From Telopea speciosissima (Eukaryota; Streptophyta; Magnoliopsida; Proteales; Proteaceae): a DNA stretch of 64,000 bases. Within the stretch, counting starts at the first letter, position 1; every line of letters begins with the position of its first letter. The translations under genes were made by a program, and so were the position numbers. Below the pieces are notes generated by a model. The model saw only the letters and a list, made by a program, of their open reading frames with translations. It did no database searches and was not told the origin of the DNA. Shown here piece by piece: positions 2,699 through 63,830 of the stretch. The stretch spans positions 58,770,593 to 58,834,592 of the forward strand of contig NC_057923.1 of assembly GCF_018873765.1 (NCBI RefSeq). Direction: 5' to 3'.

Positions 2699-3660
2699 AT
2701 TTTGGGAAGCAATTCAAATGCATAAGATAGAAACCATGCAATTTAATTAATTAATGTCTTTGTGAGAAACATATCGATCCTATTTAAAAGGATAATGGTA
2801 AGCAACAACTGTGATATTTAATTCCCATGCACCAAACGCTAGACTTTGGAGGATAAATATGTCAACAACGTCCACACAATTTTCAAGTGGACTAAAAACT
2901 CGGACAGTTGTACTGGATTTTAACCTTATTAATAATAATGCATGCTAGCTAGACCTCCAGCTGACCTAATCATTTTTGTGATATGTCACCAATTCCAGTC
3001 AATTTGGATGTACATATGGAACTTGCGGTAGAAAACCATTGTTGTCTATTCACAACGACTATTCTTCTTCTTCTCCCTCCCTGTTTTAGTTCTCAAGCTT
3101 GCATGTTAAATCTGTCTCCATTTCTATATCCTAGACATAAGCTTCGATGGCACATTTGTAATTAAGGTGCAATTGAATGAAGGAGTTTTTAGGCAAATTG
3201 TAGTACTTGATGGACTCATAGGCAATTAGGTTCATAATCTTGAGATTGGATCGGTGCCGATCCCGAATATAGACCAATCTGATACCAATCCACTGGTACG
3301 ATCCAAGGGTAAAAGGGTAATAAAAAGTTTTTTTTTTTCTTTTTTTTAATATTAAGAATTAAGGGCAATTCCATCTGATCTGTATCGATTCAAGGCAATC
3401 CGGATCAGTATCGGATCGATATCGACCAAGACTGAGACCAAGCCCAATCCAATTTCCGATACCTTAAACAATGCCCCATAACTGCGTCTAATGGCCGAGT
3501 GGTTCAAATCCAACAACTTTTCCTTGGAAAGTTTTTGCAACTTGCTCACTTGCATTGGATACATGGTCCTAGAGTAGTTGGGCTCCATACCTCACATCCA
3601 CTTTAAAGGTCGTTCGTTATCTCTAGTTCTATCCCAAAAAATGGACCTGTCAAAAACTAA
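2699..3660. other. upstream flank of the truncated LRR gene with decayed repeats
   Basis: About 2785-2850 resembles the flank upstream of the paralogue (19530-19600), sharing a run like AGCAACAACYGTRATATT and a CACCAAACRCTAGAC motif, so the promoter region was duplicated with the gene. At 3490-3610 there is a partial copy of the same flanking sequence seen at 5745-5850 and 25890-25950. Around 3240-3470 there are degenerate TATCGG/CCGATA repeats. No gene is supported. Confidence 0.5.
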
Positions 3661-4925: not shown

Positions 4926-5099
4926 TACTCAGTAAATGCTTTTTTGTGCAAAGAAATTAAAAGATAGTGCTAAGCTGCAGAAGTATTCCACCAAAAGCTA
5001 GACTTAGAAGTCAATAGGCCCTCGTGGGTACCATATTGATCCCTTGTGGGTCTTCTCTTGCCTTCTTGTGGGCCTCTGATAGGCCATTGCCAATTGCAC

Positions 5100-5137
<38 letters not shown>

Positions 5138-15911: not shown

Positions 15912-18900
15912 TTATAGAGCTTCAAGAAAATTTCCCTTGATTAAACGTAGTTCCCTCACAACATCTTTCATGTTCAAACGTTCTCTTGGCGATTCCATGG
16001 AACATTGGAGTGCAATTTCAATTATTGAAGCCATGCAATCTTGCAATTTATTTGTCCTATGACTAGGACCATCAGTTTTGTTGATAGCTTCATCTTCACT
16101 TTCTTCACTGTGTTCTTCCTTGGGTAGGAGTATTGGATCAAAAATTTGCATCACGTGTACAGGTAAAGCTGCCTTTGCAAAGTTACGGAGATTCAAGTCA
16201 TCGGAAAACATCTGATCTGTTGGCCTTTTTCCTATGAACATCTCTAATAAAAGGATCCCATAGCTGAATATGTCCCCTTGTATAGTTGCCTTTCCACCCA
16301 TGCCATATTCTGAAATTTACAAACCCATTTTTTTAGTATAAAAATAAGTGATTTGCATATTGTTCATATAATACAATAAATTACAATATTTTTTTTTCCG
16401 GTAATAAATCTCATATATTGAAATTGTGAACAATATATTCAAAAGTAGCAAATTATAAGGTCATTTTTCACCTTAGGAACCATGATTCTTTTCATTATAT
16501 TAATAGGAATCCAATCTAAATTTGCTCGAATTAGATACCTGGTCCAATGCATTCATAGTATAATCAATTCTTAATTCAAGTGATTAGGTGAAAAACCATG
16601 ATCAATTCTAATTATGATAGAAAAGTATGTTGGTATACTAAATCAACTATCCAGAACAGGATCTGGATATCCAATAATATTTAGAATAAATACTAAGCCT
16701 GGTACACATGACCTTTAGATCTAACCTTTTTCTAAATCATCATTTTGGCCATGTTTAACATTGTACAACAAAATTTTGATTAGAATAGATAGCAACAACT
16801 TTGTAAAGGGCATTTAGATCTACAAAATCAAAATTTAATATATTGATAACTCAAAATAAAATTGTATAGTTTATTTGTAATTACCTGGAGCAGCATATCC
16901 AATAGATCCTTTTATCCCGATGGTACTAGTTTGTGCCTGGGATGAATTGTCGTCAGGTTCTACAAGTAGCCTTGCCAAACCAAAATCACTAATATGTGCA
17001 GTCATATCATTGTCGAATAGAATATTGCTTGGCTTCAAGTCACAATGAACAATTGGCACATAACAGTCGTAATGAAGGTAATCCAATGCAAAAGCCACAT
17101 CAATTGCGATGTTGAGTCTTTGAAGAAGGCCTAAACTCCTTGAATGATTATTTGCCTGCATTGGCAGATGCAACCAATCATCTAGACTCCCATTGGGCAT
17201 GAACTCATAAACAAGTGCTTTGAAATCTTTGCCTTCTAAATCAAGACTTGAACAGGAAGTTAAGATCTTGACAAGATTTCGATGCCGAATGTTTCTTAGT
17301 GCTTTACATTCAGCCATAAAGCTCTTGTAAACTCTTGGATTTTGATGGTTGAGTACCTTGACTGCGACAATTGTTTCATGCTGATCAATAATCCCTTTGT
17401 ACTATACAGAGCCAAAACTACCAGAACCTATGAAATTAGCTGAAGAAAATCCTCCAGTAGCATTGAAGAGCTCTTTGTAAGAAAGCTTTAAGATCCAATC
17501 ACCGATTAATGGTGTGGATGATGGTTTATTTTTTTTATTTTCTTTTCCAACAAAGAGTAAGAAAGGAAGATATCAAAAGAAAACCAACAACCATACCGAT
17601 TATTGTCAGAACTATTCTAAAAGCCTTGGACTTTTCTCGTTCGGCAGATCCATGGTTTTTGCATGTGGGCATATGTAACTCTGCAATTCCCCCACAAAGC
17701 TTATCATTTCCATTCACTAAAATTGCACTTGCATTTCCAAAGATTCCTTTTGTTGGTACCTCCCCCTTAAGATTATTGATGAATAAATTCAAACTTTGCA
17801 ACACTGAAAGTTTCTCTAGATCTTGTGGGATTTGTCCCGACAAGTTGTTATGTGAGAGATCTAAATCTTGAAGCCCCTTCAAAAGAGTCAAAGATTGAGG
17901 AATGGTTCCTTCAAACAAATTACCACCCATATAAAGATGTTCCAAACTATTACAGTCACCAACAGAGGAGGGAATTTCTCCAGACAGTTTATTATTGGAG
18001 ATATCTATTGTAGAAAGACTCTTCAAGTTTCCAATTTCAATTGGTAGGGAACTGACCAAAGAATTAGAAGATAAGTCAAGAGATATTGATAAGGAGGAAA
18101 TAAGAAAGAGTTGCTTAGGTATTGGGCCTTGGAGGTTATTGTGACTAAGGTTTAGGTACTGTAACCGTTGACAATTCCCAATGCTAGTAGGAATGCTTGC
18201 ATTCAAGTTGTTGCCTTCTAAGTGGAGTTCATACAAAAAAGTGAGATTGCCTATAGATGAAGGTATCTGTCCAGAAAGTCTATTTCCACCCAACAATAAT
18301 CTTTGAAGCTTTGGAAGTTTCCCGATAACAGAAGGAATATTACTTTCCAAAAAATTCTCACCCAAGCTCAAATCGGTCAAGTTGATGAGATTCTCAATCC
18401 CAGTAGGAATGATTCCAGATATTTGATTCCCTCCCAAATGAAGTATCGAGAGCTGTGTTGAGAGATTGGCTTTAAAGTTGGGAAGGGGACCCTTAAAACA
18501 ATTAATTTGTAGGGCCAAAAACCTCAGATGTGTACAATTCACCAATGATTTTAAGAAATCAAAATCATCAGATTTCCCTGTTCCACATTGATTTCCAGCA
18601 ATACTGAATACTTGAAGGTTTTGAAGATTTCCTAAGTTGTTAGGGACTGGTCCAATAAAATTGTTATCCCCGAGATCAACTATTTCGAGTTTTGAAAAAT
18701 TGGATATGGAATTTGGAATGCTTCCTGAGAAAAAGTTAATTCCAAGTAATAGTTTAATGAGATTTGGAAGAGTGAGGCCTATGTCTGGTGGAAGGCTCCC
18801 ATGCAGTTGGTTTCGGTAGAAAGAAATAACTTCAAGAGATGAGAGACTATGTAGTGAGACAGGGAACATACCAGATAGCTTGTTTTGACCAAGTGATAGA

Positions 18901-19431
18901 AAGTTTAGGTTTGTTAGCTGACCAAAGGATTCTGGAATGCTCCCCTGCAGTTCATTTCCATTCAAAGAGATGACTCGGAGGGAGGAAATGTTTCCAAAAG
19001 AAGCTGGTATTTCTCCTATTAAGCCATTGTCATTAATAGAAATTATCTCTAGCTTTGACAAAGACGTAAATAGTTCAACCGGAATCTTCCTGACGAGATT
19101 GTTAAAGGAGAAGTGAATTTCTCTTAGACGAGTGCAATTGGCCAACCTGGTAGGAATTTCTCCTTCGAGAGTATTGTTATGAAAGGAAATCCAAGCTGAT
19201 AACCCTTTGTTGATGACGATGGCCGCATGTGATCCCTACCCAGTTGCAGAAATGGATGGAATCGTTCCAAGAACTCAGTGCTCCATACAAATCATCAATT
19301 ATTTGTTTCTTAAACTCCAGCAAAGCAAGTCGATCATTTGTACCATCAGGGGTGACTGATTCTAGCAGCCTCAATGAGCTCCCAGCAAAGAGGAAAATAT
19401 TGAAAACTAGAATAAGCTGATGAAGAGCCAT
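15912..19431 (-). pseudogene. LRR-XII receptor-like kinase pseudogene (FLS2/EFR/Xa21 subfamily)
   Basis: Order on the minus strand: signal peptide from the ATG at 19431 (MALHQLILVF), N-terminal cap with FCNWVGITC, about 20 LRRs (19145 down to ~17700), a membrane helix (IVLTIIGMVVGFLLISSFLT, ~17570-17630), a juxtamembrane region, and a non-RD kinase with VHCDLKPSNILFD and DFGLAR. Exons 19431-16885 and 16309-15912 join in phase at GYAAP|EYG across a 575-bp intron, the classic intron position of this subfamily. Three lesions are visible: a frame-breaking deletion of about 140 bp at ~19185 relative to the 1394-2698 copy, a frameshift in the A-rich stretch at ~17535, and an in-frame TAG inside the glycine loop (FGSV-stop-YKG, ~17402). 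Intact members act as plasma-membrane immune receptors; this copy should not make one. Confidence 0.88.
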
Positions 19432-19640
19432 CAAAGATGATTTAGAATCAAATTTTGGGAAGCAAATGCAGAAGAAACCATGCAATTTTGAGTTGTGGAT
19501 AACTAGGGTATAGCTATATATTCTCCTAACAAAAGGAAAGTGCTAAGCAACAACCGTAATATTGCACCAAACACTAGACCTTAGAAGTCAAAGTCTTTCC
19601 TGTTATTTCTTAGACAATTTGTTTCATGGTAAATACATGA
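19432..19640 (-). promoter_or_regulatory. putative promoter region of the receptor kinase pseudogene
   Basis: A TATATAGC box lies on the minus strand at about 19512-19520, roughly 85 bases upstream of the ATG. The region at 19540-19610 is one of five copies of the AGTGCTAAGCAACAAC / TTAGAAGTCAAAGTCTT segment seen in this window. Confidence 0.45.
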
Positions 19641-20240: not shown

Positions 20241-21191
20241 ACCTCAGGTTTGAGGCTCAGGTGGCACTAGCTTGCTATTGTGGGTTTTCCTCGTGCTCGT
20301 TTGTCTGCTAACTAATCTCATGTTGATGGCAATGTTGTAAGTGAGGTTTTTTATTTTACAGTTTTGTGTAGTGTTTCTAGGGTTTCCCAACTCTTCCCTT
20401 TGTACGCTTCATTCTTTATTTGAAGGAAAATTATGTACCCCTCCCCTATATTTTGACTTAATTACACCTTCCTTTTCTGTATTTTTTTTAATTACACTTT
20501 GACCCCCTCTGGCTGACGGTATTAACATTCTGTTAGTTATTGGTTGGAAAAGACTGTTTTATCCTTGTACTAAAACATCAGAAATGAAATTACACATCTA
20601 CCCTTATTTAATCTTCAACCTAAAAAACCCATTTCTTTCCTCCTCCACCGCCAGCACCACCACCACCACCACCGCCACCATTGCCGCCGCATCCTCCACC
20701 GCCTCCTTCAGAATTTCTCCATCTGTTCTATAATTCTATTACAAACAGTTGGATTTCAGAGAAAAGAAAGATTGTTTCTTCCTTTCTTCTCTTACAGAGA
20801 GTTTTTCTCTCCGTGGATTCCAGAGAAAGAAACTCTACCAACCATCGAAGGAGGGTTCTAAGAAAGGTATTTTACTGTCAAAATATGGGATGACTCTGAT
20901 GATCTGGAGATTCAAGATCTTAAAGTCTGCTGCAATAAAACACCAGAACAGTAGAGCCGCAGGCTAGAAATTGCATTTTGAAGGAACAGCTTTGATGGAT
21001 CTCGATAGCCCAATCTTCAGCAGATCAACAGCAACTCAGCAGTGGAGAAACAAAGCTTCGACACCTCTCTGATCACTTGGTTATTACAGAGAAACAAAAT
21101 AGAAATCAATAATAATCGATGGAGAGGAAGAATAGGAAGAAAATTGGGGGGGTCCCAACGTTTGGGCGTCCCAGAATCATCAATAGCACCT

Positions 21192-21690
21192 CTATATGAA
21201 GAGAAGAAACCTCCATTCAAAGCGAAAGAACCTGAAGATGAGGTTTAATTCATCATCGATTTGGAATTGACATTTTCCCTCTTCTATTGCCCTTTCTTTC
21301 CTCAAATTTCCATTTCTCTGGATCAATCCATCCCTTTCTTTCCCTTTCCTTCTCTCTTTCCTTTTAGATTTGTGACCATTTTTCTCTAACCCCAAACATC
21401 TCCTACCGATCATCCGGGGAACCTTCACTAATGCAAGCGCCAAGAAGCTCACCACTGCACAAGGGCAACAGCAGATGGCTACACAGTCCGCCATGAAACT
21501 GGCAGTGCACGATCTGCAGTACTTTCCAAAACACTTGATCACATCTCCAGCCCCATCATCGACCAGATGACGATCCCTCGTAGCTCCGCCATTCGATCCT
21601 TCAATGCTCCGGTTCTTACGTGAAAACCGATCTGGGTTTTCTTCATCTCAAGCCCAACCATGATCACTGCCTGAAGCTAATTGAAATCCT
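21192..21690 (-). pseudogene. captured fragment of a plant Cys-rich CCCPCAVV-type protein gene
   Basis: The minus-strand frame reads GGATRDRHLVDDGAGD, then CFGKYCRSCTASFMADCVAI and CCCPCAVVSFLALALVKVP, then a basic tail rich in Arg/Lys. This resembles a family of small plant proteins of unknown function with an SCTAxxxADCVAxCCCPCAV core and a short hydrophobic stretch. An in-frame stop lies upstream at about 21637, and no start or promoter is visible. It sits inside a long-TIR element, which suggests capture. I recognise the family from the motif only. Confidence 0.6.
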
Positions 21691-22184
21691 AACTTAAAAG
21701 ATTAAAAGAAAATGAATGCAAAATACCCAAAAAAGTTTGATTCAATGTCAAAATCAGAGGTTGAACGAGCAGGGTGGGGGCGAAGTTGCAGGAAAGGGGT
21801 TGGACGAGGAGGAAGAAGAACAAGGGTAAAAGAGTCTATTCACATGGAATAAAAGGGTCATCTCACAACGACTCAAGGTTAGTTCGAGGACTATGAAAAA
21901 TCTTAGAGAAATTTACACATACCATCCTTGAGGTTTGATGAAAGGATATTTTCACCCCCAGTTTTGGAAAATTCTACATACCTCCTTGAGGTTTGCAAAC
22001 GGTAACAAATAAGTCCATTCCATCAGTTCATGACTAACACTGTTAAAAATTAGACTTGAACTGACGGAATTGCCCTTCTAAGAAGAATCAGAATAAAATA
22101 AAAATAAAAACCAAAAGCTCAATTCATCTTCCCCAAACCTGCGACTTCGTCGGAAAATCCCTCCATGCTTGACCTTAAAAATTA

Positions 22185-22617
22185 GACGATATTTTAGGCC
22201 AGCAAGAGTGCTTCCGTATGTTTTAAAAAGCTCAACTCGAAGATTTGACGCTTTATCCTCTGTAAATCCACATTTTTCACAAGAAATCCTGTAGAAAAGG
22301 AAATAAAATTGATTAACATAGTCAGATTTCAAAACTCATATTCTTGCAACAATGCAACTTTAATTCAATTCACAATTTTAATTTACCCCTTACTTACCTT
22401 CAGTGTTTCTCTTGCATGCTTCAACAATTCCAATCTTTGAAGAGTATAAAGTATCATCAAGGTCTGTTATACACAGTTCCAAAATATACAATCAACTGTA
22501 AGAGAGAGAATACAAAGGGAAACGAAAGAAAATGAAGAGACAGAGAAAGAGTTACCGAAAAGGAGGCAGTCGAAGGGAGAGCCGGAGTCCCAAGCAGATT
22601 TACTGCAAAAATCCATA
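22185..22617 (-). pseudogene. captured exons 1-3 of a HAD-superfamily pyrimidine 5'-nucleotidase-like gene
   Basis: Exon 1 (22617-22556) begins MDFCSKSAWDSGSPFDCLLF; exon 2 (22463-22398) gives the HAD nucleophile motif DLDDTLYSSKIGIVEAC; exon 3 (from ~22290) gives EKCGFTEDKASNLRVELFKT then YGSTLAGLK. Splice sites survive (CG|GTAAC, AACAG|AC, GAAG|GTAAGT, CTACAG|GA). The spliced order matches plant SDT1/PHM8-like nucleotidases. Exon 1 has one base too many to keep frame into exon 2, and exon 3 has a further break just after its acceptor, so it is non-functional. The similarity ends at ~22187, where the TIR starts. Confidence 0.8.
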
Positions 22618-22789
22618 ATGATGATCGATCGATGAAGACGAGAGAAGAAGAGAAAGAGAAAATTAAAATCGAAACTTAAAAATCTATGAAGGAAGCTGGA
22701 GGAGATTTCTACTAATGGAAGCTGGAGGAGATAAATACGGATATATATAGGCTTGACGGAGAGAGGCGCTAGCCTCTTGTTGAAGCGGC

Positions 22790-23020
22790 TGTTAAGGTAA
22801 CTAATTCAGAAGCTTATTTGGAAAATTGCATTTTATCTATAAAAATTTCTTCGATTTCCTGCGTCAATTCATGTTTCCCTGAATTTGATTAATGGATTTG
22901 CAGGAGGGATTTTGGTACCACCATGCTGAGCCGAAATACTTAATGCTGGTTCATTGGATACCTGAAACTCGTAATACTCTTCCTGCAAATGTTATGCACA
23001 GGAAAAATAGTTGGAGATGT
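22790..23020 (+). other. possible second captured exon-intron fragment, unrecognised
   Basis: AAG|GTAACT at about 22797 and TTGCAG|GAGG at about 22910 look like a plant intron, followed by an open segment reading EGFWYHHAEPKYLMLVHW. It lies between the nucleotidase leader and the right TIR. I do not recognise the protein. Confidence 0.3.
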
Positions 23021-23479
23021 TTAAGGTCAAGCATGAAGGGATTTTCGGACGAAGTCGCAGGTTTGGGGAAGATGAATTACAGCTTTTGTTTTTTTATTTT
23101 ATTTTTATTTTTGTTTTTAATTCTTCTTAGAAGGGCAATTCCATCCGTTCAAGTCTAATTTTTAACAGTGTTAGTCACGAACTGACGAAATGGACTTATT
23201 TGTTACCGTTTGCAACTCTCATAGGGGGTAGGTAGAATTTTCCAAAATTGGGGGCTAAAAATATCCTTACGTCAAACCTCAGGGGTGGTATGTGTAAATT
23301 TTCCAAAATCTTATTATGTCATGTCCACATTTAACAGACGGACACTAACGACAAGAAAGGAATTAGTAATTTCATTGAAAACTACTGGAAAATTATATGT
23401 AATTGGGCAAAATCAAGGGGAGGAAGGTGTGATTAGGACAAACTATAGGGGAGGGTTACGAAATTTTCCCTTATTTTTA

Positions 23480-26604: not shown

Positions 26605-27956
26605 TTGTTTTTAGGAAAAATTACATGCCCTCCCCTGTATTATAGCATAATTACATATTCTCCCTTGAACTTTTTCCAATTACATTCAGACCCCCTTTGA
26701 CTGACGGTGTTAACATGTTGTTAGTTATTGATTGGAAAAGACAATTTTACCCTTATACTAAAACATAAAAAATTGAATTACAATTCTACCCTGGTCTATG
26801 TAACATGACCCGTTTCCCTCCTCCTCTACATTGCTTTGGTTAGCGGTCAAGCCCCCACGGCAACACCAACTACCACACCGGCACCTCCAAGTACTCCGGT
26901 CGCACCAGTTTCATCACCACCCGCTGCTACAATCGAGTCGACCACGCCCAAAAACCCAGCCTCAGTAGCGACACCAACAACGGCACCATCGATAGTAGTT
27001 TCAACTCCGCCAGTGCAAGCTCCCAAGGCAGCTCCACCAACATCGACGGTTCCAATCCGTCCTTTTTCCATTCCCTTCACCCGCTTTTCCCATCTCTCAG
27101 TTGTTGTTCCTTATTGTTCTTCTTCATTTTGCTCTGAAAATGGTTTCAATCCACTGGATTCGAAAACAGGCAAAAGGGGATGGATCTGGGTTCCTTAAGC
27201 AAGAGAGAGATGGGCCTGCGGAAGATGATTGGAGGAGTTTAAAAATGGGCAGAACTGATGATTGGCAAAAACGATTCTTCTTCTTCTTCCTCCTCCTGCA
27301 ACCCAACACGCCCCTACCCCTCTGCAATCTGTTCCATATTAACTCCAATCGCTTCTGGGGAACTGTACCTCACAAGTTCGTCAACCTCAACTACAAGAAA
27401 ACCTGTATAATTAGATGTTAGGTTACTGAAACTGAAATGGTGGATTTAGGTGATTTTTTTTTTGTGGGGGTTTTTAGTGAATTTTGTTTCTAATGAAGTT
27501 CACCTAGTGAAACCTATTTTAAGTTAAATTTTATCAAATAGTAAAACTATGTATTCTGAAGAGGGTTTCAATGTCAATGCAGAGGTATGGTGACCCAGTA
27601 GTAGGTATCCTTTCTTCTCTAGCCGCAGTGCTTAATCCGGCAATGGAAGTGGGTTTCATCGCCGACGATATCAAGGTTCAGAAGTTGGGGATGAAATAAA
27701 AAAGGAAAGTGCCTCTATGTTTGTTTTTAATCAAAAGAGTAGAAGGGTTATCTCACAAGGACCCAAGGTTAGTTTGGGAATTATAAAAATATTATTAAGT
27801 CACAGTCACCATTTGATAGACGGACGCTAACGACATGGGTGTAATAGTATTGTTTGCAAATTAGAGGGAGTCAGAGTATAATTGAGAAAAATTCAGGGGA
27901 GGAATATATTAGGAGATAGTATAAAGAAGGGGCTTATAATTTTTTTCTAATTTTTA
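26605..27956. mobile_element. long-TIR Mutator-like element with a captured AGP-like fragment
   Basis: Element 26614-27947 (1334 bp). Ends GGAAAAATTACATGCCC and, on the other strand, GAAAAAAATTATAAGCCCC; it shares further terminal sequence with 20425-23470 (CTGACGGTGTTAAC, TTAGTTATTGRTTGGAAAAG). Flanks TTGTTTTTA and TAATTTTTA match at 7 of 9. No transposase. Confidence 0.78.
26818..27055 (+). pseudogene. captured fragment of an arabinogalactan-protein-like gene
   Basis: The frame through 26836 reads LLYIALVSGQAPTATPTT, then PAPPSTPVAPVSSPPAAT and TPPVQAPKAAPPTSTVPI. The end of a signal peptide followed by Gln-Ala-Pro and a Pro/Ala/Ser/Thr-rich body is the layout of classical AGPs. There is no initiating Met with a full signal peptide and no GPI-anchor C-terminus; after ~27055 the frame continues as unrelated sequence. 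The whole fragment lies inside a long-TIR element. Composition alone could mimic an AGP, so confidence is moderate. Confidence 0.55.
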
Positions 27957-40200: not shown

Positions 40201-40902
40201 GATTTTCATAGTAACCAAACCCCCTTCTAAGGAATTCTGAATTTTTGGTCCTAAGAAAAAAACAGGAGAAGTTACATAATGAACCTCCCCAGACCCCGCA
40301 CTGGGTACGCCCTTTTTAAGGAAACAGGGGATGGTACTTGATTCAGGGTAGCATACTACCCATTGCACTGCAACAGTTTTGAGAATCTGATTGTCATTGA
40401 TTGCTTACTCCAATGTAGCAAATGTTGTATTAATAGGGGATGGTAATGGATTCAGGGTTGCATACCATCCATTGCAGTGGTACAATTTTGAGAATCTGAT
40501 TATCACTGATTGATTGCTTACTCCAATGTAGCAAAAGTTGTATTGCACAAGTATGTGCTAAAATTTTGACATTTAGTTTTGAAACTATTGCAATACTTGT
40601 CAATTTGAGCTAATTGAAACTTGAGTTCTCAGGCTATGTGTTGCCATGGCTAGTGATCTGAACAAGAAGATATTGATCGATTCAGTAGTTGGAGGTTTTC
40701 TCAGCTAAAGGAGTACATTAGTTGATTAGTGAATGAGAAAAAACTGAGCTGATTGAGTAGGGAATTTTTAAAATTTTTCTTAGTATATTTATATGTATTT
40801 TTTTCCTGTGAAGATAAGGTCTACATGTTTTCTGTAAATGGTTTGAACTTGGAGGGGGCTAGGCTATTCAAATATGTGATGACTATTGAAAATTACTTTT
40901 TA
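40201..40902. other. 3' flank of UTP5 with an Au-SINE scrap and a tandem duplication
   Basis: 40281-40318 (CCTCCCCAGACCCCGCA, then TGGGTACGCCCTTTTT) is the 3' end of an Au-type SINE with a short internal deletion. 40327-40435 and 40436-40550 are two ~110-bp tandem copies (GGGGATGGTA...AGCAAAWGTTGTATT). The UTP5 polyadenylation site probably lies here. Confidence 0.6.
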
Positions 40903-41242
40903 GGGGAAAATATAGGGACACCCCCTTAATTATGGGCCTTATGACCCGTTTTCATGTACACCCCCCTCATCTTTAAAACCTTTTGAGTCAGTCCATTGAG
41001 TTAACTCACCATTACCTAACTAATAAAAAACTTAAAGTTACTAAAATACCCTCTATACCTTAATACATTAAAAAACAAAAAGACTTGATTACCCTAAATC
41101 CTCCCACCCTTCCAGTTACCTCATTTCCCAAATCTCTCACGAAACCTCCTCACCACCGCTATCTCTTGTACCCCTACCCTTCACCTCCGATCACCGTCTG
41201 TCATGCATCTTTGGTCGCCGTTGCTACTCCTCAAGTAAGCGC

Positions 41243-41276
<34 letters not shown>

Positions 41277-42338
41277 TTCGTCGCATCTTCTGCAACTAAA
41301 AACCATTCCCTATTTTTGTGCAAATAAAACCATTCCCCACTCACTTTGTCACATCTTCTGCAACTAAAAACCCACCCTTATTTTTTGGATAGCTAATAAA
41401 ATGTCTAATTGGATTTTCTCTCGTTAACTACAAAAGCCATAGGCAATCAAACTAAAAACCCTTCCTTCTTTTTCATCTTTCTCATATAGTTTGGAAAGAA
41501 TTTTTTTTTTTTTTTTTTTTGACAATTTTACTTTTACAATGGCATTTTTGTAATCATCTGAAAAGAGGTACAATAGTAAAAGAATTGATATTTACCATTA
41601 GGCTCTGTATGTTTCGGTGTAAAATTTTACTTGAAAATTTTTGCTTAAAAAATTTAGATGTTGAAAAATGTTCCGATGTCTGTTTTTGTATGGAAACAAA
41701 CATTAGAAAATTTTTCATAACATGTAAAATTTTTCAGGTAAGATTTTACGACGAAACAAACGGAATCTCAATAGCAAATTTTACAAAGTCCCCACTTAAG
41801 CAGAGACAAGGCCATAATAACCCCTAACCCACCCACCCTCTCTGTGGCCCTCAAACTTTCATTTTGAAAGAGCCCAAGCACCCGGATTTGAAAATGTTGG
41901 ATGGAATTCCTTGTCTGTTTGATTATAAAACAAGTAATTATCTAGTGTTAAAAAGAAGACCATCTATCAAATCCCTCTTCGGTATGGTTTATACCTTCGC
42001 TTATACTCAGTTGAAATCAAGAGACCATCTATCAAATCCTTCTTCACATATATCAAATCCCTCTTCATCAAGTGTCCTCCGTTTTACTTTTCCCCACACA
42101 AGCACTATTGTGCCCTTCTAAATCAAACAAATTCAACGAACTCAGACTCTCTGATTCGCGTATGATCTCTCTCTCTCTCTCTCTCTGTTCAATCTCTTCT
42201 CAGATCCCTCTCTCTATGAAATCCCTAAATCAATTTGAAGATTTCCTTCTCTGAAATTCCTAAATGGAGATTGTTTATTTTTATCTCTTAGTTCGTATAT
42301 ATTGATCCTGGAGGCTCCCTTACCATCTTCAATGCAGG

Positions 42339-43346
42339 ATGACGTATTTTACTTTGCATATCCATCATGGGGGGCATGATCAGCGAGGATCCAGAATATT
42401 TCATTTGAGATGTTGACATTATTGGTGAGCTTGGGCTTCATAAGACATGCAACAGATGTCATTTGCTTCCTCACATGTTGTTTAAGGATGGACCGAGATT
42501 TTTGACTAGTGATAGAGATGTGTTGGATATGTTTGTAATGCATGAAGGTAGGCCCCATATTGCACTGTATGTTGTTAACTTAGAAGATGATGCAATTGGT
42601 GGAAGGGATGAGGATGTTGCTATTGATGAAGGATTGATACCTGCTGGAGACGTAGGTTCACATAGTGTGGTTGATGTTTTTAATTTTCAGATTTTGCTGA
42701 AGGAGTTATTCTCAGTGATGGTTTTGGTGATGCTACAGATGATGTATGTGAGAAAAGTGAGGGTGGTAATAAAATTGAAGTTTCTAAAGATAATGAAGAT
42801 GGTAATGATAATAAGGATGAATCATCAGAGTACGGTGATAGTGATGAGCTAAATAGCCTTTCGAACCCATCTAATGATTATAGTCCTAAATAACCTGAGT
42901 TTTTTGAGAGGAATTTGGAGAACCTTATCTTGAAACTTGGTATGAGGTTTGCATCTTTTAAAGTGTATAGAGCTTCACTTAGGGAGCATGTAATCCAGAA
43001 TGGATATGAAAAAAAAAAAAAAAAAAAATGAGAGTTCTAGGGTCACTGTTGTGTGCAAGAATGAATGTGATTGGCGAATACATGCTTCTCCAATGTCTAA
43101 TGATGGGACTTTTCAAATAAAGAATTATCAAGACAAACACAATTGTGCAAGGATTTACAGTAATCGACAAACAAATTCAGAGTGGTTGTGCAAGAAGTAC
43201 TTAGACAGGGTAAGGAATGACCCAAAGTGGAAATTAGGTGTCATGCATAAATCAGCTAGAAGGAAATATATGGTTGATGTGTCTTATGGGAAATCTTATA
43301 GAACAAAAAATAAATCTTTAAACAAGTGTTCAAACTACCACCCATA
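42339..43346 (+). pseudogene. MuDR/MULE transposase remnant, N-terminal and DNA-binding regions
   Basis: Begins after a CAG at 42337 with MTYFTLHIHHGGH, the usual start of plant MULE transposases. A frameshifted PB1-like part follows (HMLFKDGPRFLTSDRDVLDM, RPHIALYVV), then an acidic linker. The DNA-binding domain at 42930-43330 reads VVCKNECDWRIHASPMSNDG, TFQIKNYQDKHNCARIYSNR and RNDPKWKLGVM. An A-run at 43010-43028 breaks frame. The catalytic DDE domain, SWIM zinc finger and C-terminus are absent, so it cannot transpose itself. Confidence 0.82.
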
Positions 43347-43739
43347 AAACAAACAAACAAAAAACTACTGGGTGTTCAAACTATCAAACTTATGACATAG
43401 GCCACTGAGTAGATGAAGATTGGGTATTAGGAGTGTGGCTTTGATTATGTAATGGGACTTGACTTGAACCACTGAATATTGGCAGCTTGCTAGGTTTGCC
43501 GGCCACCAACTGTTTTTGTGATGGTTTGAGCACTTATTGGAACTTGGTTGGGCACTTCTGGCATCTTTTTGCAGCTCTTTTATGTCTCCTTCTTGTTCTC
43601 ATGTGGGATGTTTCTGTAGTCTCAGATATTTTGTTCAAAGTATATGATTTTTTGTTCTTCAAGTATATGTTTAACAGTTTTTCTATTTTCTATTCTTTAA
43701 TCCTCAGTACTTGATTACTATTTTACGTACTGGTGTATG

Positions 43740-44010
43740 AAAATGGAAAATAACCAGCCATGGCTTATTATTAAGGAGATCGAGCTCCCAAATGGGATGC
43801 CAATGGCAATCAAGGTCCTTAACAAAGAAAGCTTCAGACAAGAAAGCTAAAGAGCAGTACATGGCAGAAGTAAGCAGCAATTGGAATAACATACCATGTC
43901 AATTTGGTTAGACTCTATGATTTATGTTATGATTCCACAGTGCAAGCTCTTGAATGTGAGTACATGGAAAAGGGGTCGCTTGATGGTATATTGTTTGACA
44001 AGAACCAGAG
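43740..44010 (+). pseudogene. captured receptor-like kinase fragment (LRK10L/Lr10 type)
   Basis: Reads ELPNGMPMAIKVLNKE, then after a frameshift AKEQYMAEVSS...VNLVRLYD and EYMEKGSLDGILFDKN. This is the ATP-binding lobe (the VAIK lysine is present) of LRK10-like or similar receptor kinases. It is broken by a stop at ~43848 and frameshifts. It lies inside the MULE, between the transposase remnant and the right TIR. Confidence 0.7.
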
Positions 44011-44414
44011 AATGGAATGAGAAAAGCTGCATGAGTTCGTTTGTAGTATTGAACGAATGGAATAGGAAAAATAAGCTCTTTTTGTTTTTTTGTCACTTGA
44101 CAGTTATATTGACCATGGCTTTCGTGCTTAACAGCTTTAAGAGTTCTTTTTTGTTTTTCTTTTTTCTTGTTGCCTTAATTACTACCCAAGTGAGAGCTCA
44201 CATTTATAAGTTCTTTTTTGTTTTTTTTTTTTTAAATCATCATGGGTTCTGTGGTTTCTTTTCAATAACCAAAGAATGGAATGGGAAAATAAGCACTTTT
44301 TTTTGTTGTTGATCTGCTGAAAATATCAGATTTTCTTCTCCTTTGTTAAGAGGTGGGAGAGGGGAACGGTATAGGGGAGTGATGGGGTGAGGAAGAAAAA
44401 TTTATAAGTAGAAA

Positions 44415-44453
44415 TGGGGGTGGGGGTGGGGGTGGGGGTGGGGGTGGGGGTGG
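44415..44453 (+). repeat. (GGGGGT)n microsatellite, G-quadruplex prone
   Basis: Seven G-runs of five or six bases spaced by single T bases. Confidence 0.9.
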
Positions 44454-44754
44454 TACAGGAGAGATGTCCCTAGGCCACGCCCAGGCGCAGATGTGCCCAA
44501 CCCTATGGCAGGTTAGGGAAAAAAAAGTCTTGAGTTGTAGTTACCCTTAAAGGGTATTTTCGTCTTCAAATTTTAATTTGGGCAATCTGGTCCTAAAAAA
44601 ATGGTTGGGTGAACATTGACGTTTAAAACTAAATGACAATGACAGTTAGTTTGATGAACTAATTTACTTGCTTTCAATAGATGGGAGGGTGTACATGAAA
44701 ATGGGCCATAGTTGAGGGGGTGTCCCTATATTTTGCCCTATTTTATCTAAAAAA

Positions 44755-44920
44755 TTTGCATCATGTATACAAGTAAAGTTATCTTTGCAAAGTTACGGAG
44801 ATTCAAATTATCAGAAAACATCTGATCAGCTGGCATTTTTCGTATGAACAATTTCTAATAAAAGAATCCCATAACGCAATACGTCTCCTTGTATTGTTGC
44901 CCTTTTGCCCTCTCCAGGGA
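44755..44920 (-). pseudogene. LRR receptor kinase scrap (kinase C-lobe)
   Basis: Near-identical in order to 16147-16300 of the receptor kinase pseudogene. The minus strand reads RATIQGDVLRYGILLLEI, against KATIQGDIFSYGILLLEM there, then a decayed version of the following exon. Only ~165 bases remain. It lies just outside the right end of the MULE and is followed by a foldback repeat. Confidence 0.8.
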
Positions 44921-44943
44921 ACCCAATGCCCAGGGAGTATTCA

Positions 44944-45050
44944 AGGGGGGGGCATCCAATGGCGAGGCTGTGCCGCACACATCCCAGCGACGTGTGCCAG
45001 TCAACTGTTGGGATGTGTCCAGCAAAGCCCAGCCGTTGGATGCCCCCTGG
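44944..45050. mobile_element. foldback MITE-like repeat
   Basis: GGGGGGCATCCAATGGC at the left pairs with GCCGTTGGATGCCCCC at the right, and CACACATCCCA pairs with TGGGATGTGTCC. No clear target duplication. Confidence 0.55.
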
Positions 45051-45176
45051 AGACGAGGTCTGTGCATCATCAAGAATAAATTGTAATGGATTCATAGGAT
45101 CCCACATGAATTTCACCATTTATTAAAGGGTTTTACAGTACTAGTTTAGACAGCTTGATTGGGTTTCAGTTTGTTT

Positions 45177-45290
45177 TGGTATGTTCCAAAATACCCTCCT
45201 GATACCCATTCTCGCCCTCTCATGCCTCACGATGATTGAGATCCCATTCACCGTGGGTGGGGGGAAACTCGATCCTATGTCTTTTAACCA
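45177..45290 (+). repeat. dispersed ~110-bp repeat, copy 1
   Basis: Shares TATGTTCCAAAATACCCTCC and CATTCACCSTGGGTGG-type words with 63021-63120 and, inverted, with 51831-51945. Function unknown. Confidence 0.6.
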
Positions 45291-45309
45291 TTTTATTTGC
45301 TGATTATTA

Positions 45310-45887
45310 TTATTACGTGGAAGTTGAAATATGATCACTGAGTGAGATGAATGTAAGGTTTTGTATGACATGAATCCATCCACATCGATACATTCATGTC
45401 AGTCATGCATAGATGTGGCAATGGTGACAAGCTATATTCAATATAGACAATGTCATAACCATTTGGGGCTTTGGGTCATGGACCTTTCGGTGTTTAATGC
45501 AGGGCAAGGGTGCCTTTTTCTCCAAAGTACTCTTTTCATATTGGCCCTTGAAAGCTATCCTTCCTTCTCATGTTACATCTCTTGACCACTTCTATCATTC
45601 TACCTTCACATAGGTCCAGTCCTCATCTGCTACCGCACATGCACCCTTTCTAGCTACTCCCATTCGCTCTCTCTCTCTCTCAACATAAGAGTGATTGAAA
45701 GGTATAGAAGTATAGCTTTCCATGTCAAAGAAGAAGTAGAGCTTTCCATGTCAAAGAATTTGTGGGGCAAACAGAAAGCAAAGTGTCCAAGATCCCAGTA
45801 ATGGACTATGAGGTAGGGTCTTGTAAATGCCTCATTCATTATAGCATTTCAACCTTTTTATAATCTTTTTCTTTTTTTAGTGAATAT
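45310..45887. repeat. segmental repeat shared with 12735-13125
   Basis: Left part of the copy that continues at 47509 after the LTR insertion. Its right end GTGAATAT matches the empty site in the other copy. Confidence 0.7.
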
Positions 45888-47508
45888 TGATAATCCTAGG
45901 TGCACTGAGAGGGGGGGTGAATCAGTGCCTTTAAAAATTCTTCCAAACTCAGTCCCGAAGTAATAACAATCACACACAAAGATTGGTCGGGGCAGTCCTG
46001 TAATTACCAATCACACATGCACGTCCACCTCGCAACCACTGTGTGGTCAGGTCTACCAGACAATGCACCACCACTCTGCAGCAAACACATTCCAAGAATA
46101 CGAAAACAAAATAACAAGCAAACAGTACACCAAATATACGTGGTTCGGCCAAGCTACCTACATCCACGGAGGAATACCCGTAAGGGTTTCGTATTTCCTC
46201 AAATACTCAACTCGAGTTTGACTACTACAATAGCCCAGCTGCTACAACACCTGCTTCTGACTCCGCAACAATGAAATCTAAGGCTACAACCCCAATCCAA
46301 TCAAACCCCAGCTTGAATGGAATTACAATATGAATATAAAAATTCAATTACAAGTCCCTCCCAATAACATGAACAAAAATTAGGATTCTTTCAACATGAA
46401 TCAAACCCTAAATATCAAATAGGACTTGTGAAACAAAAGATTACCTCTCCCTGAGTAATCCCGTGACTAACCCACTGCTCGAAGCCTACCTGATGTCTTG
46501 CACGATCTCCAATGTTCAAAGCAGCATCTTCGATTGTTCAAGCAAGGTTTTTCTTTATTTTTGACATTTCTGTAATTTTTCTGCTATTTCTCACGTTTCC
46601 ACTGTGTTCTTGAAAAAATATGCACTTTCAAAGAGAGAGATATTGCCTTCCAAAGTTGAAAGATACAAAAATGGCAAGTGGAGGACGAATTTGTAATATT
46701 CAAAGATATTCGTGATGATCGGCAAGGCACGATAAGATTTGCCAAGAGATCACATTCCAAAAGAGGTGACAGCTGTACAGCACTTACTCAAATCAGAATT
46801 CAAATTTCAATAACCGTACTACTCTCTTAAGGAACAATGGTATGGTGTATCGCATAGCACCGTGCACCATCAAGGGCAAGCCAATCAGAGAGCGACGTGA
46901 TGAGCAAAATCCAATGGCCACCAAGATTCTTTAATTTTATAAAACAATGGGACACCTCTGTTGATAGTAGCACTTAAAAAAAACGATCAAAAAATTGGCT
47001 AAATATAAAACTTTTTGCCTACGTCAGATTTGCTCCATTTTTGCGCATCAACACGGAAAAATCTGTAACTTTCTCATCCAACATTGAAATGATACGAGAC
47101 CAGTTGCGTTGGAATCGTGACTCGACGAAATTCATTTTTTATGAAGACCACTTCACCCAGAAATGCCATTAAATTTTTCAAAAATGATCTTAAAGTCACT
47201 GCCATTGCACAAACCTATGAAATCACAACTTTAACAATATGAAACCTTCACCTGCTGCTTCGCCCCTTTGCCAAACACTATGTAAGGACTTAATAAGCTG
47301 TTAAATGGTGTTCTTCAAATGCGAGTACCCCTGTAATCCTGTCAAATGACCAAAATACCCTTATAGCCGTGTAGGTGACTATTTTACCATTTCAGCTCTT
47401 CCAGCTCATCAAATACCACTGCCGCATCACCAATATGGATAATAAGGTTGCCAACAATGACAACACCACTCCAGCAAACTTCAGTTGACCCAGTTGACCC
47501 ACAAATAT
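45883..47508 (+). mobile_element. solo LTR (or LTR-only element), 1616 bp, duplication AATAT
   Basis: Element 45888-47503 starts TGATAATCCTAGGTGCACTG and ends GACCCACA (TG...CA). AATAT flanks both sides (45883-45887, 47504-47508). The GAGAGGGGGGGTGAATCAGTGC start and the TACGTGGTTCGGCC motif are typical of a plant LTR family. No internal coding region. The uninterrupted site at 13120-13135 confirms the insertion. Confidence 0.85.
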
Positions 47509-62587: not shown

Positions 62588-63830
62588 TTTGTGAAATTTG
62601 AGAAAATACACCAAGAAATTCTCTCCAAAAAAGGAACATAAAAGGGTTCTAACCTACATGGGAGAATAAAAATAAAAATCCAAAGAGTTAGAAAATTGTG
62701 CAGTTTGGTTTCAAGAAAATGGAAATCATTAAACCTACTACATATGGACCTTTCTAGCTTTTTTATATATATAAAACTAATCAAATTATTTGAGAGAGCT
62801 TAAACAATGGTTCTTAATCCATAATAAGATCCTTTCAATTGCACAAAAATTGTTTGATGTTATTAAATCTAAATGAAACAACCTTGGCAGGGTGTTTTAT
62901 GTCATTTCGACCCTTATCGTGAGAGGGGATAAGACTGTGCACACAACTTTTAGCCATTATAAAAAAAATAAAAAGAGAATGAGGAAAATAAGAGAGTGGG
63001 ATCCACATTTTTTTAAGGACTATGTTCCAAAATACCCTCCCCATATCCTTTCTTGACTTCTCCCGTCTTGCAGTGAATGGGATCTCATTCACCCTGGGTG
63101 GAGGGAAACTCGGTCCTTTTTTCAAATAAAATTTTCACTTCCAAGATAAGAGAAAAAATGAGAAGTGATATGAACGGCTGGAATCTTTCCTGATAGGTAG
63201 GCCCCACATGAATAACAAATTCCCTATATGAAGCCCTAAGCCATCATTTTGGAAAGATGAGAATTCCATCCAACCAAGCTACACAGACCGAATCAGACTT
63301 TAAATAAAAAAAATAAATAAATAAAAAAAAAAGAGGGCTGGGGAAGGAAAGAATCACTGAGGTTTAGTCGAAGTAATTTTCTGTTTACATAGTAAAACTA
63401 AACAGATTAACAAAGAGACAAGGGAAACCTCAAATTTAACCATGGTACTAAGAAAATGAAAATTCCATCCTACCTAGCTATACAGACCCAGTAAAGTTTA
63501 AAATTAAAATTAAAAAAAAAAAAAAAGGAAGAATAGGTACTGAGGTTTAGTCAAAGCAAATTTCAGTTTATATAATAAAATTAAAAAATCAAAACTCAGA
63601 ACAAAAAAAAAGGGAATCTCTAAACAAATAACCCAAAACGTAATTAAAAAACTAAGAACATCCATAAACATCTTTGAAATTTTTACATACCTCCGTAAAA
63701 AATTATGCACCAGCTTCTTGTCTTGTAACAGACGGAGAGAGAGAGAGAGATGAATGGGAGAAAGAGAGAAATGGTTGTGGATAGATGAAAAGAAACGAAA
63801 ACATGCAACGGTTTAAATAGTTAGAGTCTT
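62588..63830 (-). promoter_or_regulatory. INT leader, leader intron and putative promoter
   Basis: An acceptor at 62653/62654 (CATGTAG|GTTAG) and a donor at 63692/63691 (CGGAG|GTATGT) suggest a leader intron of ~1.04 kb. A (GA)n tract lies at 63732-63749, and a CTATTTAAAC TATA-like box lies at 63812-63821 on the minus strand. The intron contains the dispersed repeat at 63021-63120 and a tandem duplication (63250-63445, 63446-63625). Confidence 0.5.

Follow-up and report, generated by a model that had tools for sequence, protein, structure and literature searches.

A nested insert, very probably a non-autonomous Pack-MULE, carrying truncated HAD nucleotidase and Nudix hydrolase gene fragments

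Results

Features of the locus

The window, by which we mean the whole 64-kb stretch of DNA that was analysed, is presumably of plant origin, judging by its RVT_2 and RVT_1 reverse transcriptases, leucine-rich repeats, a sugar transporter, and a DUF4005 protein. Searches of the window for tRNAs and Rfam families (at gathering scores) returned no match. Within it, a 1,399-bp insert (21906-23304), flanked by exact 9-bp repeats of AAAATCTTA, lies inside an older element with terminal inverted repeats (TIRs). The features concerned are as follows.

about 20425..23470, no strand assigned: older TIR element B1, holding the insert, delimited by the likeness of both its ends to B2 and by its own inverted ends
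21897..21905, plus strand: left target-site duplication AAAATCTTA, an exact 9-bp match to 23305-23313
21906..22182, plus strand: left TIR, of which 21909-22182 aligned to 23301-23017
22175..22187, plus strand: 13-nt copy of the internal TIR sequence TTAAAAATTAGAC (also at 22043-22055), a possible template-switch microhomology
22192..22288, minus strand: HAD exon 3, truncated and out of frame with exons 1-2, placed by protein match
22289..22397, minus strand: HAD intron 2, GT/AG
22398..22463, minus strand: HAD exon 2, with the DLDDTLY motif
22464..22555, minus strand: HAD intron 1, GT/AG
22556..22616, minus strand: HAD exon 1 with start codon, placed by its GT/AG border and a structure-chain match
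22617..22772, minus strand: leader and core promoter, probably captured from the HAD gene, with a TATA-like box at 22749-22741
22776..22796, plus strand: Nudix exon (LVEAAVK), probably 5'-truncated
22797..22903, plus strand: Nudix intron, GT/AG
22904..22990, plus strand: Nudix exon EGFWYHHAEPKYLMLVHWIPETRNTLPAN, placed by PF18290 and 4zb3
23017..23304, minus strand: right TIR, of which 23017-23301 aligned
23305..23313, plus strand: right target-site duplication AAAATCTTA, an exact copy of 21897-21905
about 26614..27947, no strand assigned: B2, a second copy of the older TIR element, lacking the insert

Target-site duplication, TIRs, and a related empty site

With the insert ends fixed, the AAAATCTTA duplication is exact at 9 bp alone among lengths of 7 to 12, and identical 9-mers occurred in 3 of 200,000 random pairs drawn from the window. 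The TIRs, aligned between 21909-22182 (274 bp) and 23301-23017 (285 bp), are 88% identical, with 251 matches, 23 mismatches, and 11 gap columns in 285 columns (score 396), and BLAST gave the same pair at 88%; the outermost three bases on each side (21906-21908 and 23302-23304) fall outside this alignment. In comparison, 278 random pairs of like-sized stretches from the window reached a best score of 81 and a mean of 20. These random-pair controls rule out chance repeats as the origin of the duplication and the TIRs, and the first-pass annotation, which had described an exact 9-bp duplication and ∼270-bp TIRs at the two ends, was right on both. Besides the TIR pair, a search for a further copy of the element within the 64-kb window returned weak matches alone, namely (i) 5098-5129 (32 bp, 87.5%, E 4e-5), found by BLAST at word size 7 and absent at word size 11, and (ii) 3328-3380 (E 3.5e-4, BLAST within the window). 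A TIR-end pattern had no matches in bacterial, archaeal, and viral contig collections.

For an empty-site search, the two flanks were joined so that the duplication was present once, and the product was searched against the window. The joined site (21847-21905 plus 23314-23471) aligned to 27737-27956 over 229 columns, with 166 identities (72%) and 13 gaps; this alignment crosses the junction gap-free, and 27737-27956 holds a single near-identical 9-mer, AAAATATTA. The element is therefore inserted precisely within a repeat, of which an unfilled copy lies ∼4.5 kb from the insertion. The left end of B1 (20419-20648) aligns with 26609-26829 of B2 at 74%; the outer ends of B1 are inverted over 72 bp at 78%, whereas those of B2 are weaker and gapped, and the interiors of the two copies differ. 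By these alignments, the Pack-MULE is nested inside the older TIR element B1.

A truncated HAD nucleotidase fragment on the minus strand

Judged by its sequence matches, the minus-strand fragment derives from an SDT1-like HAD nucleotidase gene, of which it keeps exons 1-3 and two introns. Its nearest solved protein is the Arabidopsis XMP phosphatase At2g32150 (PDB 7ef6), which was matched at E 3.6e-6 by exons 1-2 together with the first codon of exon 3, and at E 2.7e-23, with 44 of 63 residues identical, when exon 3 was read in its own frame with an X at the break. XMPP is a member of the SDTL family, in which four major plant clades are described (PMC8616923). The match spans residues 4-66 of the 250-residue 7ef6 chain, so that the likeness to SDT1-like HAD phosphatases covers 63 aligned residues of the N-terminal region and retains the DLDDT motif, whereas the fragment consists of exons 1-3 alone, with exon 3 out of frame and the remaining enzyme absent. 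The NCBIfam pyrimidine 5'-nucleotidase model TIGR01993 matched at E 3.9e-19, its 69.2 bits comparing with a full-length-protein cut-off of 142.9. On the frame-broken peptide, Pfam HAD models gave E 0.026 and 0.1, under their cut-offs, and the joined HAD peptide matched no Pfam family at E 0.1 or better.

When spliced, the HAD exons give an open frame of 73 codons, and the protein match stops at 22192, 9 bp before the aligned TIR edge. The first-pass annotation had proposed three HAD exons with intact GT/AG borders on the minus strand; the exons, their borders, and the strand are as proposed, except that exon 3 is truncated. Its further description of the fragment as frame-broken HAD nucleotidase sequence agrees with the 7ef6 match and with the early stop. 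The locus does not contain a complete open coding sequence of a functional HAD phosphatase gene, most of the enzyme being missing, and a working HAD gene is ruled out by the truncation and the broken frame.

A second, head-to-head Nudix hydrolase fragment

On the plus strand, a second capture had been suspected at 22790-23020; this corresponds to two Nudix exons around the intron at 22797-22903. The fragment matched PF18290 at E 1.4e-9 (38.3 bits, against a Pfam cut-off of 26.5) and Arabidopsis NUDT7 (4zb3) at E 1.2e-13, with 28 of 36 residues identical, and from these matches we assign it to a NUDT7-type Nudix hydrolase, of which two exons and one intron lie head to head with the HAD fragment. 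The likeness to plant NUDT7-type Nudix hydrolases (4zb3; PF18290) is thus confined to 36 aligned residues; the fragment covers the last 26 PF18290 positions and a few residues beyond, and it lacks the catalytic Nudix box, which in Nudix hydrolases sits further downstream. A stop codon two codons ahead of the match leaves the frame without an upstream start, and on its 3' side the frame continues into the right TIR. A working Nudix gene is ruled out by truncation. Both captures are therefore truncated, and one of them is frame-broken; the junction between the two carries AGAGGC-GCTA-GCCTCT.

The two fragments belong to unrelated enzyme families. Because introns are kept in both the HAD and the Nudix fragments, an origin as a retrogene is rejected, and the GT/AG introns likewise bear out the earlier suggestion that capture took place at the DNA level.

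A TIR-derived repeat at the inner border

The sequence TTAAAAATTAGAC lies inside the left TIR at 22043-22055, is mirrored at 23153-23165, and is repeated at the inner border at 22175-22187. Among 13-mers from the first 250 nt of the left TIR, three start positions were found in the window outside the TIR pair, namely that at the inner border and those at 62665-62666. This border repeat bears on the mechanism of capture: PMC8277862 reports short stretches of shared sequence at the breakpoints of animal Pack-TIRs (190 elements, 67.6%) and attributes them to template switching.

A putative captured promoter

The HAD start codon is separated from the Nudix match by 159 bp, of which 156 (22617-22772) were examined. 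A TATA-like box, TATATATAT, lies at 22749-22741, 133 bp upstream of the HAD ATG. The motif TATATATA is present in 95 of 4911 window stretches of 156 bp (one strand), and the looser TATAWAW in 454 of the same 4911. Further, the 124 bp preceding the HAD ATG are 73% pyrimidine, a level reached by 0.75% of window stretches (both strands). This composition and the TATA-like box suggest that 22617-22772 holds a captured core promoter, which probably derived from the HAD parent gene. As the fragment retains its start codon together with a TATA-like box and a leader rich in pyrimidines, the first-pass annotation was probably wrong to call the HAD fragment promoterless.

Discussion

Assignment to the Pack-MULEs

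Pack-MULEs are described as having long TIRs and target-site duplications of 9-11 bp, with a size mode of 1000-1200 bp in tomato (PMC3310237), and about a fifth of them are said to carry segments from several loci (PMC12030055, citing Jiang 2004). The insert has long TIRs, a 9-bp duplication, and fragments of host genes, and no transposase of its own is evident by length, in that, of the 42 stop-to-stop frames in the window that reach 110 aa, only one lies in the element, and this frame, of 112 aa, holds HAD exon 1; among four peptides of the element, the Pfam matches are HAD and Nudix alone. With the Pack-MULEs of rice, tomato, and Arabidopsis it shares long TIRs, a 9-bp duplication, captured genic DNA with introns, and no transposase seen, as well as a size near 1-1.4 kb and fragments from more than one locus. 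No difference in kind from known Pack-MULEs was found, the distinguishing details being the head-to-head fragments, the probable core promoter, and the nesting in a TIR element; this is a known kind of element at a new locus. PMC5075931 mentions both 'Pack-MULE' and 'nudix', once each.

A MuDR transposase domain (PF03108, E 3.5e-8) is encoded at 42994-43347 (plus strand). As an autonomous partner of the insert, this open reading frame was rejected, since no inverted repeats of at least 40 nt occur in 40500-47500 and the region 42300-44600 has no BLAST match to the element's TIRs. With this frame unlinked to the TIRs, the MULE assignment rests on the lengths of the duplication and the TIRs and not on transposase kinship, which, together with the single copy seen in the 64-kb window, leaves some room for the insert to belong to another TIR superfamily or to be a duplication with chance inverted repeats. 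However, the exact 9-bp duplication at TIRs of 274/285 bp and the related empty site argue against chance, and other superfamilies differ in target length (CACTA, 5 bp; hAT, 8 bp; PIF, TTA/TAA; Mariner, TA), as listed in PMC8903248; we regard either of these origins as very improbable. The duplication, the long TIRs, the genic fragments, and the related empty site instead uphold the earlier reading of a Pack-MULE-like element, and we are highly confident that the insert is a non-autonomous Mutator-like element (Pack-MULE) with two captures, a confidence that concerns its identity and origin and not its transcription.

Proposed origin and possible RNA products

In the origin that we propose, template switching at short homologies, during repair or copying of the element, would have captured 5' sequence from an SDT1-like gene for a HAD nucleotidase, and a separate template switch would have captured part of a gene for a Nudix hydrolase; the chimera would then have been moved into the older TIR element by a MULE transposase acting in trans. 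The insert is now most likely neutral, a transposon with pseudogene fragments as its cargo. Were it transcribed, short chimeric RNAs would start from the probable HAD promoter (on the minus strand) and from the TIRs (on both strands).

TIR transcripts antisense to a captured fragment might yield small RNAs that target the HAD or Nudix parent, a reading compatible with a Pack-MULE and akin to the antisense or regulatory RNA suggested in the first-pass annotation. On rice chromosomes 1 and 10, 248 of 475 annotated Pack-MULEs matched transcribed regions, 109 on the ORF strand and 112 antisense, and a regulatory RNA role for Pack-MULEs was proposed from these tiling data (PMC1808428); the probable HAD promoter would, however, yield sense HAD RNA and not antisense, and we hold a regulatory source to be unlikely here. 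Alternatively, the captured promoter might drive a chimeric RNA leftward through the left TIR into a minus-strand open frame at 21192-21647, which is on the same strand and starts about 260 bp from the element. That frame lies inside the older TIR element, matches no Pfam or NCBIfam family, and may be no gene, and stops intervene in all three frames, all of which makes such a transcript highly doubtful. Of similarly slight probability is that the element acts as a mobile divergent promoter, a reading in which a captured host core promoter where the two head-to-head fragments meet, with TATATATA TATA-like on both strands, would yield HAD-derived RNA in one direction and Nudix-derived RNA in the other; were it true, the RNAs could couple control of both families, each of which acts on nucleotides or their derivatives. 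An active captured promoter would be of greater import, since Pack-MULEs that capture promoters could rewire genes. As a Pack-MULE, the insert offers a clean worked example, in which a target-site duplication, long TIRs, a related empty site within the window, two intron-bearing captures, and a border repeat occur together.

The older TIR element and neighbouring sequences

GGAAAA starts three of the four B ends, as well as the Pack-MULE at its right end; beyond this, the likeness is weak (45/70, with an E of 0.002 against two short sequences). As candidate target-site duplications of element B, the best 9-mers have 2 mismatches, a fit matched by 19% of 2000 random sites. The older TIR element may also be of the pack type.

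Elsewhere in the window, two stretches at 1394-2713 and 15912-19542 (minus strand), which we take from their translations to be LRR receptor-kinase-like, are broken into several open frames, with LRR Pfam matches at 17535-19235 only. The minus-strand frame at 21192-21647 within B1 encodes a cysteine-rich sequence of 151 aa, without a match in Pfam at E 0.01 or in NCBIfam at E 0.1. Within B2, an open reading frame at 26809-27198 (plus strand) had no Pfam match at E 0.1, and its single NCBIfam match, at E 0.099, fell far short of the model's cut-off; its product is rich in Pro, Thr, and Ala and presumably resembles an arabinogalactan protein.
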